Shown in pieces: positions 1,284 to 61,772 of a DNA stretch of 64,000 nt (within the stretch, counting starts at the first letter, position 1; the number at the start of each line of letters is the position of its first letter). The notes under the pieces are model-generated. The model was not told where the DNA came from, made no database searches, and saw only the letters and a list, made by a program, of their open reading frames with translations. The position numbers and the translations under genes were made by a program. Origin of the DNA: Chryseobacterium sp. YIM B08800 (GTDB lineage Bacteria > Bacteroidota > Bacteroidia > Flavobacteriales > Weeksellaceae); assembly GCF_026163565.1 (NCBI RefSeq), contig NZ_JAPDKN010000011.1, forward strand, positions 1 to 64,000, given 5' to 3'.

Positions 1284-2306
1284 ATGACTTCTGAAAACGC
1301 AAAAAGATTTTTTGAAAACCATTTTGGTGAAAAATCAACTCAATTTGTTACGTTAGCTCAAAGCGGTTCTGCAAGGGTCAATTTTTTGGCTCAAAATCAT
1401 ATCGGGAAATACATTATTACCTATAACGAGAATATTTCCGAAAACGAAAGTTTTCTGTATTTTTCAGAGATTTTTTCTGAGTTAAATCTCAATACGCCAA
1501 AAATATTTTCTGTTTCAGGCGACCGCAAAATGTATATTCAGGAATTTTTAGGAGAAAAAACTTTTTCAGAAATCATTACCGAAGAAGGTTTGTCTGAAAA
1601 TGTAAAGACTTTGGTAAAACAAACTCTTAAACAACTTTTTGAGCTTCAGGTAAAAACCAACGGAAAAATAGATTTCCAAAAAACTTTTGAATACGAAAGT
1701 TATGACGAGCTTCCGGTAATGCATGATTTGTATTACTTTAAAAATTTCGTTGCTGATGTTTTAGAACTTGAATATCACAAATCTTCTTTGCTGAAAGAAT
1801 TTAAAGAAATCATTAAGCTGATAGAAAGCCTTGAGCCAAAAGGTATTATGATTCGCGATTTTCAGGCAAGAAATATCATGGTAAATAATCAAAATAAAGT
1901 TTCTTTTATAGACTATCAGTCAGCAATGAAGGGTCCTTTAATGTACGATGTCATTTCTTTTTTGTTTCAGGCTAAAGCTAATTTTCCTGAAAATTTCAAA
2001 AGCGAAATGCTTGAATTTTACATTCAACAGTTTGAAGACAAAGAAATTCAGCCTCAACTAAAAAATTCGGTAAAGCCGATTCAGATGATGAGGTTTTTGC
2101 AGGTTTTGGGAGCGTACGGTTTCCGTGGACTGATTCAGAGAAAACAACATTTCATTGCAAGCATCGATAAGGGCATTCAAAATATTACAGAATTTTCAGA
2201 AAATTGGGATCAGATGAAAAATTATCCGGAACTGAAAAAGGTAATTGAACAATTGGGCTCTGAAAAAGTAAAACTTAAAATATTAGAAATATTAAAGGTT
2301 AATTAA
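1284..2306 (+). CDS. Aminoglycoside-phosphotransferase-fold sugar kinase, AmgK-like
   Basis: A 340-residue APH/choline-kinase-fold phosphotransferase. The catalytic loop IRDFQARNIMV (near residue 190) and the metal-binding IDYQSAMKGPLMYD segment (near 210) match the AmgK pattern (RDxxxxN, then DFQDAxxGPxxYD). AmgK phosphorylates the anomeric hydroxyl of N-acetylmuramic acid or GlcNAc in the recycling route to UDP-MurNAc that bypasses de novo MurA/MurB. A MurU-like nucleotidyltransferase follows at 3367, which strongly supports this role. The ATG at 1284 is preceded by TATATTTG. Sugar specificity is inferred, since APH-fold enzymes also act on other small molecules. Confidence 0.72.
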   Translation: MTSENAKRFFENHFGEKSTQFVTLAQSGSARVNFLAQNHIGKYIITYNENISENESFLYFSEIFSELNLNTPKIFSVSGDRKMYIQEFLGEKTFSEIITEEGLSENVKTLVKQTLKQLFELQVKTNGKIDFQKTFEYESYDELPVMHDLYYFKNFVADVLELEYHKSSLLKEFKEIIKLIESLEPKGIMIRDFQARNIMVNNQNKVSFIDYQSAMKGPLMYDVISFLFQAKANFPENFKSEMLEFYIQQFEDKEIQPQLKNSVKPIQMMRFLQVLGAYGFRGLIQRKQHFIASIDKGIQNITEFSENWDQMKNYPELKKVIEQLGSEKVKLKILEILKVN

Positions 2307-2813
2307 ACCATTAAGATTTATTTAAGAAGTTAAGAATATTAAGAATGATAACGAAAAAAGAGGTCACTCAATTATCATACGAAATTACAGGACTTGCAAT
2401 AAAAGTTCATAAGGCACTTGGTCCTGGTTTGCTGGAAAGTATCTATGAAGAATGCTTAAAAATAGAACTGATAAAAAATGGGTATGATGTAAAACAACAA
2501 CTTTATACTACCATCGATTATGAAGGAGTAACTATTGAAACAAAATTAGTAGTCGATTTATTAGTCAACGATTTAATAATTGTAGAACTCAAAGCTGTGG
2601 AGGAAATACTCCCTATTCACGAAGCTCAACTTTTAACATACATGAAAGTTCTGAAAAAACCAGAGGGATTGCTGATTAACTTTTTCACAAATAATATCAC
2701 CAAATCTTTAAAACCGTTTATCAACGAATATTTTAAAGAGCTTCCGGACTAAAAATTTTGATTTATCAAAATACCTTAATAAAACTTAACTTCTTAAATG
2801 AATCTTAATGGTT
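2306..2813. repeat. Imperfect inverted repeat enclosing the GxxExxY gene
   Basis: The left arm (2306-2343) and the reverse complement of the right arm (2775-2813) agree at all but one of the first 29 positions, then diverge slightly with a 1-nt indel. Within each arm TTAAG recurs about every 8-11 bp. The left arm starts in the stop codon of the AmgK-like gene and ends one base before the ATG of the GxxExxY gene. The unit is about 508 bp, with no transposase and no obvious target duplication. Confidence 0.8.
2345..2752 (+). CDS. GxxExxY family protein
   Basis: A 135-residue protein with the family motif at Gly28-Leu-Leu-Glu31-Ser-Ile-Tyr34. Residues Asp72, Glu82 and Lys84 (VELK) form a PD-(D/E)XK-like core, which suggests a nuclease fold. 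The biological role of the family is not established. The gene sits between the AmgK-like kinase and the RapZ-like gene in the same direction, but the long inverted repeat around it indicates that it is a later insertion. The ATG begins two bases after the left arm ends, so its ribosome-binding region lies inside the repeat. Confidence 0.85.
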   Translation: MITKKEVTQLSYEITGLAIKVHKALGPGLLESIYEECLKIELIKNGYDVKQQLYTTIDYEGVTIETKLVVDLLVNDLIIVELKAVEEILPIHEAQLLTYMKVLKKPEGLLINFFTNNITKSLKPFINEYFKELPD

Positions 2814-2858
2814 CAAAAAAGAAATAAATTATCAACAATCAATTATAAATAATAAAAC

Positions 2859-3269
2859 ATGCTACACATAGACATTCACAGTTTTTCATATAAAAAAGGA
2901 GGAATTCCCAAAGACAACTCTGGAAACGGTGGTGGTTTTACATTCGATTGCCGAGGAATTTTAAATCCGGGAAGAGTAGAAGAATATAAAATCCAGACCG
3001 GAAACGATATTGGAGTTCAGGAATATTTAGAAACAAAAACAGAGATGCCTCAGTTTTTAGAATTAATTAAAAACTTAGTTTCAATTAACATCGATAATTA
3101 TTTGGGAAGAGGTTTTGAAAACCTGCAAATCAATTTCGGATGTACCGGAGGACAACACAGATCGGTTTATTCAGCCATCAAAATTGCTCATTTTATTGAA
3201 GAAAAATATGGTGATAAAGTAGAAATAAGTCTTCACCACGACGAGCAACACCAACTTAATCATAAGTAA
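2859..3269 (+). CDS. Stand-alone RapZ C-terminal domain protein
   Basis: This 136-residue protein corresponds to the C-terminal domain of RapZ. It begins with [11 protein letters not shown] and [10 protein letters not shown], which align with the RapZ SFGYK...FDVRxLPNP segment, and ends with [14 protein letters not shown] (residues 94-107), the conserved CTGGxHRSV loop. The N-terminal P-loop kinase domain of proteobacterial RapZ is absent. In E. coli the C-terminal domain binds glucosamine-6-phosphate and RNA and controls GlmS. Here it lies between AmgK-like and MurU-like genes, so sensing or handling an amino-sugar phosphate is a reasonable inference. Its stop codon lies within the left arm of the repeat at 3263-3358. 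Confidence 0.85.
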
Positions 3270-11070: not shown

Positions 11071-12648
11071 TTAAAACGGAAAATCTTCTTCGTCATCAAG
11101 ATCATTCATAGAAGATCCCGAAAGTTTAGAATTGTCTGGTAAATCAAACGCTGCTCCTGGTTGTATGGTTGTTTTAATTTTTTCAAAACCACTTGGTTCA
11201 CCAAATGTAGATGAATAATCCATTCCATTGGTTGCTTCCTCGATATTTCCAAATTTTGCAAAATGCTTTAGGAAAGACAATCTTACATCTGCAGTAGCAC
11301 CGTTTCTGTGTTTTGCAATAATTAATTCTGCTTGGTTTTCGGTAGAAGTTTCTGCTCCATCTTCATCATTGTCCCAAACAGTAATTTTATAATATTCAGG
11401 TCTGAAAATAAATGAAACGATATCTGCATCCTGCTCAATTGCTCCGGATTCCCTTAGATCTGAAAGCTGAGGTCGCTTTCCGGGACGGGTTTCTACACTT
11501 CTCGAAAGCTGAGAAAGTGCAATTACAGGTACATTTAATTCTTTTGCAATTGCTTTTAATGAACGAGAAATCATTGATATTTCCTGTTCACGGTTTCCGC
11601 TGCCTTTTCCACCGCCTCCTGCAGTCATTAGCTGAAGGTAGTCAACCATGATGAGTCTTACTCCATGTTGCATTACCAATCTTCGGCATTTTGCTCTAAA
11701 GTCAAATATAGAAAGGGAAGGAGTTTCATCAATATATAAAGGTGCGTTTTCTAATTCTGATACATTGGAAAATAGTCTTTGCCATTCTTCGTCGTCCAAT
11801 GTTCCTTTTCTTAATTTTTCTGATGAAATTTTTGTTTCGGAAGCAATCATCCTTGTGATGAGCTGTACCGATGCCATCTCTAATGAGAATAGCGCCATCG
11901 GGATTTTGTATTCTACGGCAATATTTCTCGCCATTGAAAGGATGAATGCTGTTTTTCCCATCGCAGGACGGGCTGCAATAATAATAAGGTCAGAATTTTG
12001 CCAACCTCCGGTTTCTTTATCCACATCTCTAAATCCTGATGGTACACCGGAAATACCTTCTTTGTCTTTTAAAGCTTTAATGATGTCAATAGCTTCTTTT
12101 ACTAAAGTATTGGCAGTATCAAATCCTTTTTTGATGGTTCCGTTGGTGATTTCAAAAAAAGATTGTTCAGCTTTATCTAGAAGTTCGAAAACATCGGTAG
12201 ATTCTTTATAAGAATTGTCAATTACGTTTGCCGAAACATTAATTAAACTTCTTAAAATATATTTTTCAAGAATTACACGTACATGGTATTCGATATGGGC
12301 AGATGAGCTTACTCCCATCGTAAGCTCGATGATATAATGATCCCCACCTGCAGAACTCAATTTGTCTGTTTTTCTCATTTCCTGAATAACAGTCATAATG
12401 TCGACAGGGTGATTTCCTTCGTATAATTTTAAGATGACAGAAAATATAACCTGATGTCTAGGATCATAAAAAACTTCAGGAGTAAGCAGGTCGATAGAAT
12501 GATCAAGCCCTTTTTTATCAATTAAAAAAGTACCAATTACCAATCTTTCAAAATCTATTGCATTAGGAGGCATTTTTCCATCTGCAATCGATAGTTCCCT
12601 TGCAAAGTTCCCCTGTGTAAGAGAAGAGAGTGTTTCTTTCTGCGCCAT
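11071..12648 (-). CDS. dnaB: Replicative DNA helicase DnaB
   Basis: A 525-residue hexameric helicase that unwinds DNA at the replication fork. It has the N-terminal primase-interacting domain (about 27-130, starting PPNAIDFERLVIG) and the RecA-like core with Walker A ARPAMGKTAF (near 230), Walker B IMVDYLQLM (near 340) and the SRxLKAIAKEL segment. The C-terminus is acidic (DDEEDFPF), as in Bacteroidetes DnaB and SSB tails. No intein is present. The -7 box TATCTTTG ends 4 nt before the ATG, implying a leaderless mRNA; a start at Met26 would still leave an intact core. Confidence 0.96.
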   Translation of the reverse strand: MAQKETLSSLTQGNFARELSIADGKMPPNAIDFERLVIGTFLIDKKGLDHSIDLLTPEVFYDPRHQVIFSVILKLYEGNHPVDIMTVIQEMRKTDKLSSAGGDHYIIELTMGVSSSAHIEYHVRVILEKYILRSLINVSANVIDNSYKESTDVFELLDKAEQSFFEITNGTIKKGFDTANTLVKEAIDIIKALKDKEGISGVPSGFRDVDKETGGWQNSDLIIIAARPAMGKTAFILSMARNIAVEYKIPMALFSLEMASVQLITRMIASETKISSEKLRKGTLDDEEWQRLFSNVSELENAPLYIDETPSLSIFDFRAKCRRLVMQHGVRLIMVDYLQLMTAGGGGKGSGNREQEISMISRSLKAIAKELNVPVIALSQLSRSVETRPGKRPQLSDLRESGAIEQDADIVSFIFRPEYYKITVWDNDEDGAETSTENQAELIIAKHRNGATADVRLSFLKHFAKFGNIEEATNGMDYSSTFGEPSGFEKIKTTIQPGAAFDLPDNSKLSGSSMNDLDDEEDFPF

Positions 12649-57951: not shown

Positions 57952-58815
57952 TTATTTAATAACGAGTTTTTTAAGATATTCACCATATCCACTCTTTCCG
58001 TACTTCGTTGCCGTTTCCAATAGCTTTTCTTCATTGATGAATCCGTTTCTGAAGGCTATTTCTTCAATACAACCGATTTTGAAACCTTGTCTTTTTTCGA
58101 TAACACTCACAAATTCTGAAGCATCGTTTAGGGAATCGAAAGTTCCTGTATCCAGCCATGCGGTTCCTCTGTCGAGAACGGCTACTTCCAATTTTCCTTT
58201 GCTTAAGTAAACATTGTTTACATCGGTGATTTCCAATTCTCCTCGTGGAGAAGGTTTAATATTTTTGGCAATTTCTACTACTTCATTATCATAAAAATAT
58301 AATCCCGGAACAGCGTAATTCGATTTTGGTGTCAAAGGTTTTTCTTCAATAGAAACTGCTTTAAATTCATTATCAAATTCTACAACGCCGTACCTTTCAG
58401 GGTCTGAAACATGATAGGCAAAAACGACACCTCCTTCCGGATTTGTTTTGTTTTTCAACAAAGTTCCCATTTCTGAACCGTAAAAAATATTATCTCCTAA
58501 AACTAAAGCTACAGAATCGTCACCAATAAATTGGTCTCCAAGAATAAAAGCCTGTGCAAGACCATCCGGACTTGGTTGTACAACATATTCAATGTTGCAG
58601 CCAATTTGTGATCCGTCGCCTAAGAGTTTGATGAATCCGGCTTGGTCATGTGGAGTGGTGATAATTAAAATATCCTTAATTCCTGCTAAAAGCAATGTGG
58701 AAAGAGGATAATAAATCATCGGTTTGTCATAAACAGGCATTAGTTGCTTGCTTACAGCGATAGTAAGAGGGTAAAGTCTTGTTCCGGAACCTCCGGCTAA
58801 TATTATTCCTTTCAT
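57952..58815 (-). CDS. rmlA: Glucose-1-phosphate thymidylyltransferase
   Basis: A 287-residue enzyme making dTDP-glucose from dTTP and glucose-1-phosphate. Signatures: [20 protein letters not shown] (residues 4-23), [31 protein letters not shown] (metal Asp near 110) and [20 protein letters not shown]. Length is typical. It is separated from rmlB only by the inserted four-helix-bundle unit, so rmlB-rmlA was probably a direct operon before that insertion. Confidence 0.95.
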
Positions 58816-58823
58816 AATTTAGT

Positions 58824-59306
58824 GCTTGAGTTATTGGGTATTTGAGTTATTGGGTGGTGTGCCTTTTGTTTCGGAGAACGTCCATTTTTTAGAATTCACG
58901 GTCATTGAAACAATTATACTCAAAATTTCGTCATATTTTTTATATAAATCTAAATGTGTTTTTTCATCAATATATTTACATGCAAATGCAAAGTCCAGCC
59001 AGTTTTGTGTTTCTGCGGCTTCTCCATCTGCATCGTTGAGTTTGTTTATAAATGATTTTTCGTACCGCCGTTTTCTCCATGCTTCTGTAATATTGGCATT
59101 TACAGAACGTGAACTCCTTCTTATTTGATCGGTTAATGAATATTTTTCTTCCGCTGGAAATAATTTTGAAATATGAAAAATTTCCATAGCTGCAGAAAAG
59201 GCTTTTTGATAGACAATTAAATCTTTATGGAATTTTATAAAGGTCATTCTTTAAAATTATAATTAGAACTAAACTCAAAAACTCAATTATTCAAAAACTC
59301 AATTAC
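58824..59306. repeat. Inverted arms of 16-bp tandem repeats enclosing the four-helix-bundle gene
   Basis: The left arm has two copies of TTGAGTTATTGGGT (58826-58839, 58842-58855), period 16. The right arm has two exact copies of CAAAAACTCAATTA (59276-59289, 59292-59305), also period 16. The 16-mers TTGAGTTATTGGGTAT and TTGAGTTTTTGAATAA (right arm, complemented) match at about 12 of 16 positions. The right arm ends on the rmlB stop codon, and the left arm holds the stop of the enclosed gene. Confidence 0.8.
58831..59247 (-). CDS. Four-helix-bundle protein (S23 / 23S rRNA intervening-sequence type)
   Basis: A 138-residue helical protein with family marks KDLIVYQKAFSAAMEIF (near residue 8), YSLTDQIRRSSRSVNANITEAW (residues 36-57) and ETQNWLDFAFACKYI. 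The family is known from ORFs inside 23S rRNA intervening sequences and is related to the Avd accessory protein of diversity-generating retroelements; its function is unclear. No rRNA or reverse transcriptase lies in this window. It sits between rmlB and rmlA inside an inverted repeat, and its last residues (PPNNSNTQ) and stop are encoded by the repeat arm. Confidence 0.9.
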   Translation of the reverse strand: MTFIKFHKDLIVYQKAFSAAMEIFHISKLFPAEEKYSLTDQIRRSSRSVNANITEAWRKRRYEKSFINKLNDADGEAAETQNWLDFAFACKYIDEKTHLDLYKKYDEILSIIVSMTVNSKKWTFSETKGTPPNNSNTQ

Positions 59307-60385
59307 TACGAATATTGTTTGTTATAGTAATCTTGGTAGTTTCCAGAGGTTACATTTTCCAGCCATTCTTTGTTTTCTAGGAACCAGTCGATTGTTTTTC
59401 CTAATCCTTGTTCGAATGTTACAGAAGGTTTCCAGCCTAATTCTTTATTAAGTTTTGTAGCATCAATTGCATAACGTTTGTCATGACCTGGTCTGTCTTT
59501 TACATAAGTGATTAACTTTTCAGAATGACCAACAGGATTTCCAAGCTTTTCATCCATTTGCTTAATCAATTCTTTTACCAAGTCGATATTCTGCCATTCG
59601 TTGAAACCTCCGATGTTATACGTTTCTCCTGTTTTAGCCTCATTAAAAATCTGATGAATGGCTTTAGCATGATCGATGACGAATAACCAATCTCTTGTAT
59701 ATTTACCATCACCGTAAATTGGCAAAGGTTTTTCATTAATAATATTCGAAATGCAAAGCGGAATCAATTTTTCAGGAAAATGATTGGGTCCGTAATTGTT
59801 TGAACAATTTGAAACAATAAAAGGCATTCCGTAAGTATTTCCGTAAGCTCTTACCAAATGGTCTGAAGCCGCTTTTGAAGCTGAATATGGAGATTGCGGA
59901 TCGTAAGAAGTGGTTTCTAAAAAGAATCCTGTTTCGCCTAAACTTCCATAAACTTCGTCTGTGGAAACATGATAGAAAAGATTGGTTCTTTTTTCGTTTG
60001 GGAATCTTCCGTGAGTGTGATCAGGATTCAAAGTCCAGAATTCTTTACAAAGATTCAAAAGATTGGCAGTTCCGTTTACATTGGTGTTAATAAATGCCAT
60101 CGGATCTGTGATGCTTCTGTCTACATGACTTTCCGCTGCTAAGTGGATAACTGCATCTGGATTATATTTTTCAAAAACCTTTCTTAGTTCTTCAGGTTTT
60201 GTGATATCTGCTTTTTCGAAAACATAGTTAGGTTCATTTTCGATGTCCTTTAAGTTTTCAAGATTTCCGGCATAGGTTAAAGCATCCAAATTGATGATGG
60301 TAGAATCCGGATTGTTTTTTACAAATTCTCTTACAACATGTGAACCGATAAATCCTGCTCCGCCTGTGATGATGATGTTTTTCAT
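59306..60385 (-). CDS. rmlB: dTDP-glucose 4,6-dehydratase
   Basis: About 359 residues from the ATG at 60385 (MKNIIITGGAGFIGSHV); an in-frame TTG nine codons earlier is less likely. Extended SDR with NAD-binding GGAGFIGSH, YHVSTDEVYGSLG (catalytic Thr-Asp-Glu), YSASKAASDHLVR (Tyr-x3-Lys) and CSNNYGPNHFPEKLIPL. It converts dTDP-glucose to dTDP-4-keto-6-deoxyglucose, the substrate of the FdtA/QdtA-type enzyme at 54159. No RmlC or RmlD was found, so the pathway here leads to an amino sugar and not to rhamnose. Confidence 0.95.
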   Translation of the reverse strand: MKNIIITGGAGFIGSHVVREFVKNNPDSTIINLDALTYAGNLENLKDIENEPNYVFEKADITKPEELRKVFEKYNPDAVIHLAAESHVDRSITDPMAFINTNVNGTANLLNLCKEFWTLNPDHTHGRFPNEKRTNLFYHVSTDEVYGSLGETGFFLETTSYDPQSPYSASKAASDHLVRAYGNTYGMPFIVSNCSNNYGPNHFPEKLIPLCISNIINEKPLPIYGDGKYTRDWLFVIDHAKAIHQIFNEAKTGETYNIGGFNEWQNIDLVKELIKQMDEKLGNPVGHSEKLITYVKDRPGHDKRYAIDATKLNKELGWKPSVTFEQGLGKTIDWFLENKEWLENVTSGNYQDYYNKQYS

Positions 60386-60461
60386 TTGTTTTATGCTTTT
60401 AGCCGTTGGCAATTTGCTTTTGGCATTTTATTAATTAATAAATTTCAAAATTTAGTGCTAT

Positions 60462-61772
60462 TTACCTGATGGTTTTTCTTCCAATAGATTTGTAGAAAAA
60501 TCCGTTCTGTTGAGGAACTTCCAACGGATACATATTTCTTCCGTCGAAAATAGCTTTATTGTTCATTTTTTTAGCCATCATATCAAAGTTGGGATTTTTG
60601 AATTCAGGCCATTCTGTAGCGATAAATAATGCGTCTGCATTTTCTAAAGCATCATACATGGTTTTTGCGTAAGCTATTTTATCTCCTAATAATTTTCTTA
60701 CGTTTTCTTCTGCAATAAGATCGTAGGCAACAATTTTTGCGCCTTTTTGAAGAAGTAAATTGATGTTGTCTAACGAAGAGGCTTCTCTAATGTCGTCGGT
60801 ATTTGCTTTAAAAGCCAATCCCCACATTGCAATTGTTTTGCCTTCAAGATTTCCTCCGAAATATTTTTCAATTTCAGAAACCAAGATTACTTTTTGTGAA
60901 ATATTGACATTTTCTGTCGCTTCCAAAATCTGGAAATTAAAATCATCGTCTTTTCCGGATTTAATTAAAGCTTTTACATCTTTAGGGAAACAGCTTCCCC
61001 CATATCCGATTCCTGGAAATAAGAAACGGTGACCAATTCTGTCGTCACTTCCCATTCCTAATCTTACTTTATCTACATCTGCGCCTACTTTTTCGCAGTA
61101 ATTGGCAATTTCATTCATGAACGTGATTTTTACGGCTAAGAATGAGTTGGATGCATATTTTGTAAGTTCGGAAGACTTTTCATCCATAAAAATAATAGGA
61201 ATTCCGGTATTGGTAAATGGCTGATAAATTTTCTCCATAATATCTTTAGCTTTCTCTGAGCTCGATCCTACAACAACTCTTGCAGGATTCATAGAATCTT
61301 CTACTGCAAAACCTTCACGTAAAAATTCAGGATTTGAAACTACATCAAAATCAATAGTAGTTTTTGCGGAAATAGTTTCTCTTACTTTGTCGGCTGTTCC
61401 TACGGGAACGGTGCTTTTGTTAACAACCACTTTATATTCGGTCATCAGTTCGCCAATATCATTGGCTACTTTCAAAACGTAAGATAAATCTGCTGAACCA
61501 TCTTCTCCGGGTGGAGTGGGAAGGGCAAGATAAACAACCTCACTTTTATCTAAAGCTTCTTTCAGGTTGGTTGTGAAAAATAATCTTTCAGATTGAATAT
61601 TTCTGAGAAACATTTCTTCAAGATTCGGCTCGTATATGGGTACGATGCCGTTTTTCATCCCTTCTACTTTTTTTTCATCAATGTCAACACAATAAACCGA
61701 ATTACCAAGTTCTGCAAGGGTAGTTCCCGTAACCAGACCTACATAACCTGTTCCTACTATCGTTATATTCAA
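60462..61772 (-). CDS. ugd: UDP-glucose 6-dehydrogenase
   Basis: A 436-residue enzyme of the UDP-glucose/GDP-mannose dehydrogenase family. NAD-binding GTGYVGLVTGTTLAELG, substrate-contact NPEFLREGFAVED and the catalytic-Cys segment GYGGSCFPKDVKAL are present, as is a C-terminal WGLAFKANTDDIREA domain. It oxidises UDP-glucose to UDP-glucuronate; a related UDP-sugar is possible. The start codon is TTG (61770-61772); no in-frame ATG lies nearby upstream. About 77 bp separate it from rmlB. Confidence 0.9.
   Translation of the reverse strand: MNITIVGTGYVGLVTGTTLAELGNSVYCVDIDEKKVEGMKNGIVPIYEPNLEEMFLRNIQSERLFFTTNLKEALDKSEVVYLALPTPPGEDGSADLSYVLKVANDIGELMTEYKVVVNKSTVPVGTADKVRETISAKTTIDFDVVSNPEFLREGFAVEDSMNPARVVVGSSSEKAKDIMEKIYQPFTNTGIPIIFMDEKSSELTKYASNSFLAVKITFMNEIANYCEKVGADVDKVRLGMGSDDRIGHRFLFPGIGYGGSCFPKDVKALIKSGKDDDFNFQILEATENVNISQKVILVSEIEKYFGGNLEGKTIAMWGLAFKANTDDIREASSLDNINLLLQKGAKIVAYDLIAEENVRKLLGDKIAYAKTMYDALENADALFIATEWPEFKNPNFDMMAKKMNNKAIFDGRNMYPLEVPQQNGFFYKSIGRKTIR

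Follow-up and report, generated by a model that had tools for sequence, protein, structure and literature searches.

Between rmlB and rmlA in the window (the whole 64,000-nucleotide stretch of DNA analyzed here), a small gene for a four-helix-bundle protein lies inside two arms of short tandem repeats that are inverted relative to each other. We consider that this feature may well belong to a family of short intercistronic hairpins that are mobile and resemble REPs and MITEs, in which the four-helix-bundle gene is the element's own and gene-less copies are non-autonomous derivatives. This reading draws on the architecture, the repeat period, the potential of an element's own arms to pair, arms that stayed with the gene when some copies moved, hairpins of like build that lack the gene, and the presence or absence of elements between relatives, all of which we observed.

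The repeat-flanked gene between rmlB and rmlA

The gene (positions 58831 to 59247, minus strand) is an ORF encoding a 138-amino-acid protein with a pI of 8.9. Profile searches placed the protein in PF05635 (23S_rRNA_IVP; 116 bits against a Pfam cut-off of 33.8) and TIGR02436 (105 bits against an NCBIfam cut-off of 24), whereas its scores for bAvd (34.4 against 40, Pfam) and DivGenRetAVD (30.3 against 80, NCBIfam) were below the cut-offs, so that it does not qualify as the Avd of a diversity-generating retroelement. Thus, the initial annotation was right in naming a family of intervening-sequence (IVS) proteins with kinship to Avd. In line with that annotation, we take the flanking ORFs to be the operon genes rmlB upstream (59306 to 60412, minus strand, with the ATG start likely near 60385) and rmlA downstream (57952 to 58815, minus strand); the neighborhood of both is conserved.

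In transcript order, the 5' arm (59272 to 59305) reads TAATTGAGTTTTTGAATAATTGAGTTTTTGAG, begins directly after the rmlB stop codon (59306), and contains exact 15-nt repeats (59275 to 59289 and 59291 to 59305) at a spacing of 16 nt. The 3' arm (58815 to 58857) reads ACCCAATAACTCAAATACCCAATAACTCAAG, spans the 3' end of the four-helix-bundle gene with its final codons and stop (ORF end 58831), and extends to the rmlA start region. As the left arm of the window, it carries two 16-nt copies, TTGAGTTATTGGGTAT (58826 to 58841) and TTGAGTTATTGGGTGG (58842 to 58857). The right arm had already been described as adjoining the rmlB stop and the left arm as encoding the final eight residues and stop of the small protein, and both statements agree with the coordinates. 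The two 16-bp copies described for each arm are real as well, but the true unit is 8 nt, each 16-bp unit being a pair of these.

The arms had also been called inverted relatives, and indeed positions 58820 to 58855 and 59273 to 59308 form a 36-nt inverted pair with 78% complementarity. In the predicted minimum free energy (MFE) fold of the whole 490 nt, the two arms pair with each other and enclose the gene (MFE, -89.3; z, -2.0; 2 of 100 shuffles equally stable). Inverted repeats per se were not in excess in the window, where 4 reached a score of at least 17 against 5 in a Markov control. Once a repeat-period value of 0.55 or more was required on top of this score, the arm pair alone remained in the window, and Markov controls had no such pair, whether modeled on the window or on two 400-kb stretches. 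No target-site duplication was obvious at rmlB-rmlA, the one site searched for it, and the protein had no PADLOC defense-system match up to an E value of 0.01.

An inverted repeat that forms a predicted RNA stem around an ORF of this family is also the layout of the 23S rRNA intervening sequences, and the feature might be such an IVS that escaped from its rRNA gene. Besides the shared protein family and terminal inverted repeats, IVSs are excised by RNase III; a Coxiella study (PMC4990558) reports an IVS with a 28-bp terminal stem cut by this enzyme. The window copy lies between protein genes rather than inside a 23S rRNA gene, Rfam models, rRNA models included, gave no match up to an E value of 0.1 in the one region in which they were run (58000 to 60500), and long open frames stand on both sides of most other copies examined. 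We regard an escaped IVS as improbable.

Own-arm pairing and repeat period across the family

A search of the genome for other genes of the family, with comparison of their flanks, had been proposed, and a profile search found 18 PF05635 genes in the window's genome. The family was present in 58 of 59 genomes of the genus and in 116 of 148 sampled genomes of the phylum. By eye, most of the copies viewed lie between repeat arms whose letters are specific to the copy. We compared 5' with 3' arms in 106 genus copies, which derive from 111 profile matches: seven were removed (three fragments that run off the end of their locus, the truncated L016, and the split matches to two broken genes, L012 and L033), after which each of the two broken genes was restored as a single row. 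Outside the genus, copies were kept when the match covered at least 95 profile positions (64 rows; L186 and short fragments were left out). The samples lean toward the best-scoring members of the family.

Own pairs of arms scored 19.1 on average, compared with 11.5 for pairs taken from copies with less than 60% protein identity, and the sum for own arms was reached in none of 20,000 permutations; with 27 protein-cluster representatives, it was reached in none of 100,000. Since just 36 of the 106 own scores exceeded the 99th percentile of other pairs, the signal is strong in the set and not in each copy. Family copies without flanking repeats had been named as the finding that would refute the association; as a set the copies do have arms, but not every copy scores well. 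Exchange of 3' arms between elements lowered the predicted number of MFE inter-arm pairs from 27.9 to 13.9. The proposal of a repeat-associated element is strongly supported, with copy-specific inverted arms found as a set in the genus, in the phylum, and in a few contigs of metagenome-assembled genomes (MAGs) labelled as other phyla.

Two further explanations were examined and rejected. Chance or AT-richness as the source of the arms was ruled out by the permutations, by control small ORFs, and, for periodic pairs, by the Markov controls; conserved or perfect terminal repeats common to all copies were ruled out as well, the arms differing between sites. Within single sites, covariation was examined at eight sites with 300 permutations each: sites 0 and 1 had more paired cells than any permutation, and double changes did so at site 1 only. 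At sites 2 to 5, no clear excess was seen, and sites 6 and 7 had no consensus stem.

The arms share a short period rather than a sequence. Their autocorrelation peaked at 7 and 14 nt (0.395 and 0.355 in the 5' arm, 0.495 and 0.442 in the 3' arm, against a background near 0.30); a weaker increase occurred at 8 nt, and no peak was present in the coding region of the family genes. The best lag per element was 7 in 118 of 170 copies and 8 in 39; the two arms agreed on 7 in 100 copies and on 8 in 31, and were mixed in 6. Of the 210 elements, 192 had a best lag of 7, 14, or 8, as had 33 of 143 small ORFs used as controls, and an arm score of at least 17 together with a lag of 7 or 8 was found in 122 of 210 elements against 4 of 143 controls, which include at least one PF05635 gene, since one of these four is by its coordinates a member of the family.

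Repeat letters differ between families, and unit length tracks the protein clade. For 91 arm themes, clustered at an arbitrary threshold, the protein tree requires 9 changes between periods 7 and 8, compared with a mean of 22 and a minimum of 15 after shuffling (0 of 5,000); this test took the 163 of 210 elements with a clear period and an arm score of at least 15. The cluster of the window protein has a period of 8 in 21 of 29 members, and its tree neighbors include period-8 copies with quite different letters from Bacteroidales and, as L209, from a contig labelled Anaerolineae, a label that may be wrong because the contig comes from a MAG. It had been suggested that arms and protein co-vary between copies; this holds for the unit length, but the letters change freely, even among orthologous rmlB-rmlA elements. 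The period could be conserved because unit length changes slowly as the gene itself evolves, and its conservation alone is no proof that the protein recognizes it.

Moved, absent, and gene-less copies

Thirteen elements of the window's family lie at the orthologous rmlB-rmlA site (for L195, the match is to rmlB alone), one of them in Kaistella jeonii, with 83% identity. By eye they fall into two themes, TTGAGT-like and TTTAGTGG-like, with both arms of one theme in most; own scores are weak in two of them (12 and 13). For the window 5' arm, pairing with its own 3' arm gives a score of 19, and pairing with the 3' arms of six other rmlB-rmlA elements, mostly of its own theme, gives 20 to 29. In four close relatives, the rmlB-rmlA spacer is only 10 to 11 bp and contains no element, and further relatives have short spacers or an unrelated small gene. 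The latter, seen in L057, L066, L068, L074, and L076, is about 460 bp long and encodes a possibly secreted protein, as judged by eye.

Arms are alike at the same site across copies, and in some moves of the gene they were kept. Among eight pairs at different sites with 70 to 80% protein identity, 3' arms scored at least 20 in six and 5' arms in two, distant pairs averaging about 11.5. The two arms scored 32 and 32 in L084/L100 and 21 and 21 in L012/L013, with L027/L025 (9 and 13) as the contrary case.

Hairpins were also present without a gene, a structure that the initial annotation had not foreseen. At the sites of L015 and L018, six relatives each that lack the gene had short gene-less hairpins of like build, often with other letters. 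Near one four-helix-bundle gene, three more gene-less hairpins with TTTGAAAATG letters stand in other spacers (L015, positions 1 to 90, 547 to 645, and 3011 to 3103), and an inverted repeat with CTTCGACAGGCTCAGCATGACA letters in genome G001 (L146, about 11690 to 12025) has no long ORF between its arms. A site that, from its conserved ends, is presumably groES-groEL has the gene-bearing arrangement in 28 of 58 genomes (in one of them truncated by the end of the contig), and G043 carries a more diverged family gene there. Among the 29 genomes without the gene at this site, 20 were inspected and had several themes, some well paired and some degenerate or remnants. In this spacer (L042 and L337 to L356), the repeat letters vary by species within the genus, with or without the four-helix-bundle gene.

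In 32 gene-less segments, five of them incomplete (two of 65 nt; L340, L341, and L356 stop before the groEL start), the inverted repeat exceeded all 40 shuffles in 15 and did not in 17. The best lag was 7 or 8 in 25, where about a third would be expected by chance because six lags were compared.

Some arm families are widely dispersed. Pattern matches to two of them reached 108 and 195 per genome, numbers that overstate the arms because tandem units give overlapping matches. With reversed patterns as controls, the first family gave 0 to 2 matches in most genomes, with 21, 13, 6, and 4 in G003, G026, G030, and G039, and the second gave 0 to 5. Theme-A matches had a median of 51 in the 10 genomes with a theme-A gene among the genes listed, compared with 6 in the 49 others, some of which may hold one too (p = 8e-6), and the association of theme B with its gene was weaker (p = 0.005); both p values treat genomes as independent of phylogeny. 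Theme-A matches were also frequent in genomes with no theme-A gene among those listed, such as the window's genome (73), G039 (57), G056 (53), and G047 (51). Twenty gene-less theme-A loci of one genome comprised some hairpins and many single arms, and in 19 both flanking frames were on one strand. The many dispersed gene-less intergenic copies were seen for arm families of other elements and not for the window's own letters, in a search of limited sensitivity: among the best six candidates per genome, the genus search gave one short arm match (G036; E value, 2.7e-4) and none elsewhere in the window's own genome.

Both neighbors are codirectional with the four-helix-bundle gene in 102 of 106 genus copies and, outside the genus, in 48 of the 60 copies with clear neighbors (12 are not). 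This sense-oriented position between codirectional genes, together with the finding that hairpins without a gene, a part of them well paired to this day, occupy the same sites in operons, would also suit an intercistronic RNA element that is useful to the host as a processing or stability stem and is kept for itself, the four-helix-bundle gene being a passenger that landed in the loop. We think this rather unlikely: pattern-match counts vary several-fold among related genomes, letters differ at the same site, arms were kept in some gene moves, and rmlB and rmlA are separated by just 10 to 11 bp in four relatives.

The window contains a second hairpin cassette of like layout and different gene family (2303 to 2816, plus strand), with a GxxExxY/PDDEXK_3 gene (2345 to 2752) between inverted arms (2303 to 2343 and 2775 to 2816). 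The inverted repeat is strong and copy specific; by eye, L139 and L140 from the same genome are similar and L138 is not. PF13366 genes, including this one, are flanked as a set by inverted arms of their own (16.0 against 11.9; 0 of 100,000 permutations; 33 loci, with many mutual orthologs among them and the split copy L142/L143 left out), L138 being an exception by eye, and a 7-nt period was not seen in their arms in fixed windows. Thus, a second small gene family uses a like hairpin layout.

Together with sites that carry hairpins with and without a gene, this layout would fit preexisting intergenic hairpins that serve as an insertion target for gene cassettes of several families. Group IIC introns, which use terminator hairpins, are a partial parallel. 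We hold such a target to be unlikely, as the four close relatives have no hairpin at rmlB-rmlA, and because unit length tracks the four-helix-bundle protein clade and the arms traveled with the gene in some copies that moved, the arms belong to the element.

A further possibility, that the arms are REPs mobilized by RAYT (Y1) transposases, would accord with the PF01797 matches in 53 of 59 genus genomes, some within a few kilobases of a four-helix-bundle gene. The gene between the window arms belongs to PF05635 and is not a Y1 transposase gene, and G023 has no PF01797 match yet has 27 theme-A matches. Thirty Y1 loci viewed by eye had palindromic REP-type flanks, at most one (L377) with a 7-nt-like tract, which disfavors RAYT REPs as the arms, and we consider this origin very unlikely.

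A putative mobile hairpin and its relation to known systems

As a mobile intercistronic hairpin, a full copy would consist of two degenerate tandem arms of 7- or 8-nt units, mutually inverted around one four-helix-bundle gene, and would usually fill the spacer from the stop codon of an upstream gene to the start codon of the gene downstream, codirectional with the two. Within the polycistronic transcript, a long stem would form from the arms, with the small gene looped out. The protein, mostly basic and probably pentameric, may bind the arms through structure and spacing rather than exact letters, and this binding may help the hairpin to spread or persist. The family proteins have a median pI of 8.6 (10th percentile, 6.6), and the PDB relatives 2gsc and 2rld, with five chains each, fit a pentamer. 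By analogy with the Coxiella IVS, RNase III may cut the stem from the mRNA, which would make the insertion tolerable. Gene-less copies, with short-loop arms and then single arms, would be non-autonomous derivatives, as REPs and BIMEs are to RAYT transposases, and may be helped in trans by the protein. We know of no catalytic function of the four-helix-bundle protein, and thus the protein alone cannot explain transposition.

Tentatively, we extend this to a class of mobile elements in which a ring protein reads the spacing of hairpin repeats (7 or 8 nt, set by clade) and not their sequence, so that the letters of both arms could drift together without loss of mobility and gene-less hairpins would be carried in trans. 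If so, end recognition of this kind would be unusual among mobile elements, and a group of intergenic hairpins in these operons, that of groES-groEL included, would be explained as well. The NCBI model gives the family only the name "four helix bundle protein," and the family is as widespread in the phylum as described above; a regular partner, the inverted tract of 7- or 8-nt repeats, gives it a testable substrate and life cycle.

In titles and abstracts of the open-access literature, a coverage that is no proof of novelty, we found no description of repeat arms around the PF05635 family. A Flavobacterium columnare paper (PMC5524665) places such a gene between those for guanylate kinase and nicotinate nucleotide adenylyltransferase.

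Among known systems, Avd of the diversity-generating retroelements is a distantly related four-helix-bundle protein, with both curated cut-offs above the scores of the window protein, and a motif scan of window frames longer than 200 codons found no YxDD-like motif. Bacterial MITEs are likewise short, non-autonomous inverted-repeat elements scattered between genes, whereas for the present element no transposase family was found and no target duplication was obvious at rmlB-rmlA, and its arms are made of short-period repeats. The REP/BIME systems with RAYT (REP families are treated in PMC3733652) are likewise composed of a gene flanked by inverted repeats, with relatives of these repeats that lack the gene in other intergenic spacers; here, in contrast, the gene encodes a four-helix-bundle protein without known nuclease, and the arms are repeat tracts of many unrelated letter families instead of short conserved palindromes. 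The 23S rRNA IVSs with the S23/IVP protein in Leptospira and Coxiella share PF05635, terminal inverted repeats around an ORF, and the predicted RNA stem. Elements of the window type differ in lying between protein genes and in having gene-less copies of like build elsewhere, and their 7- or 8-nt tandem arms with site-specific letters may be a further difference.
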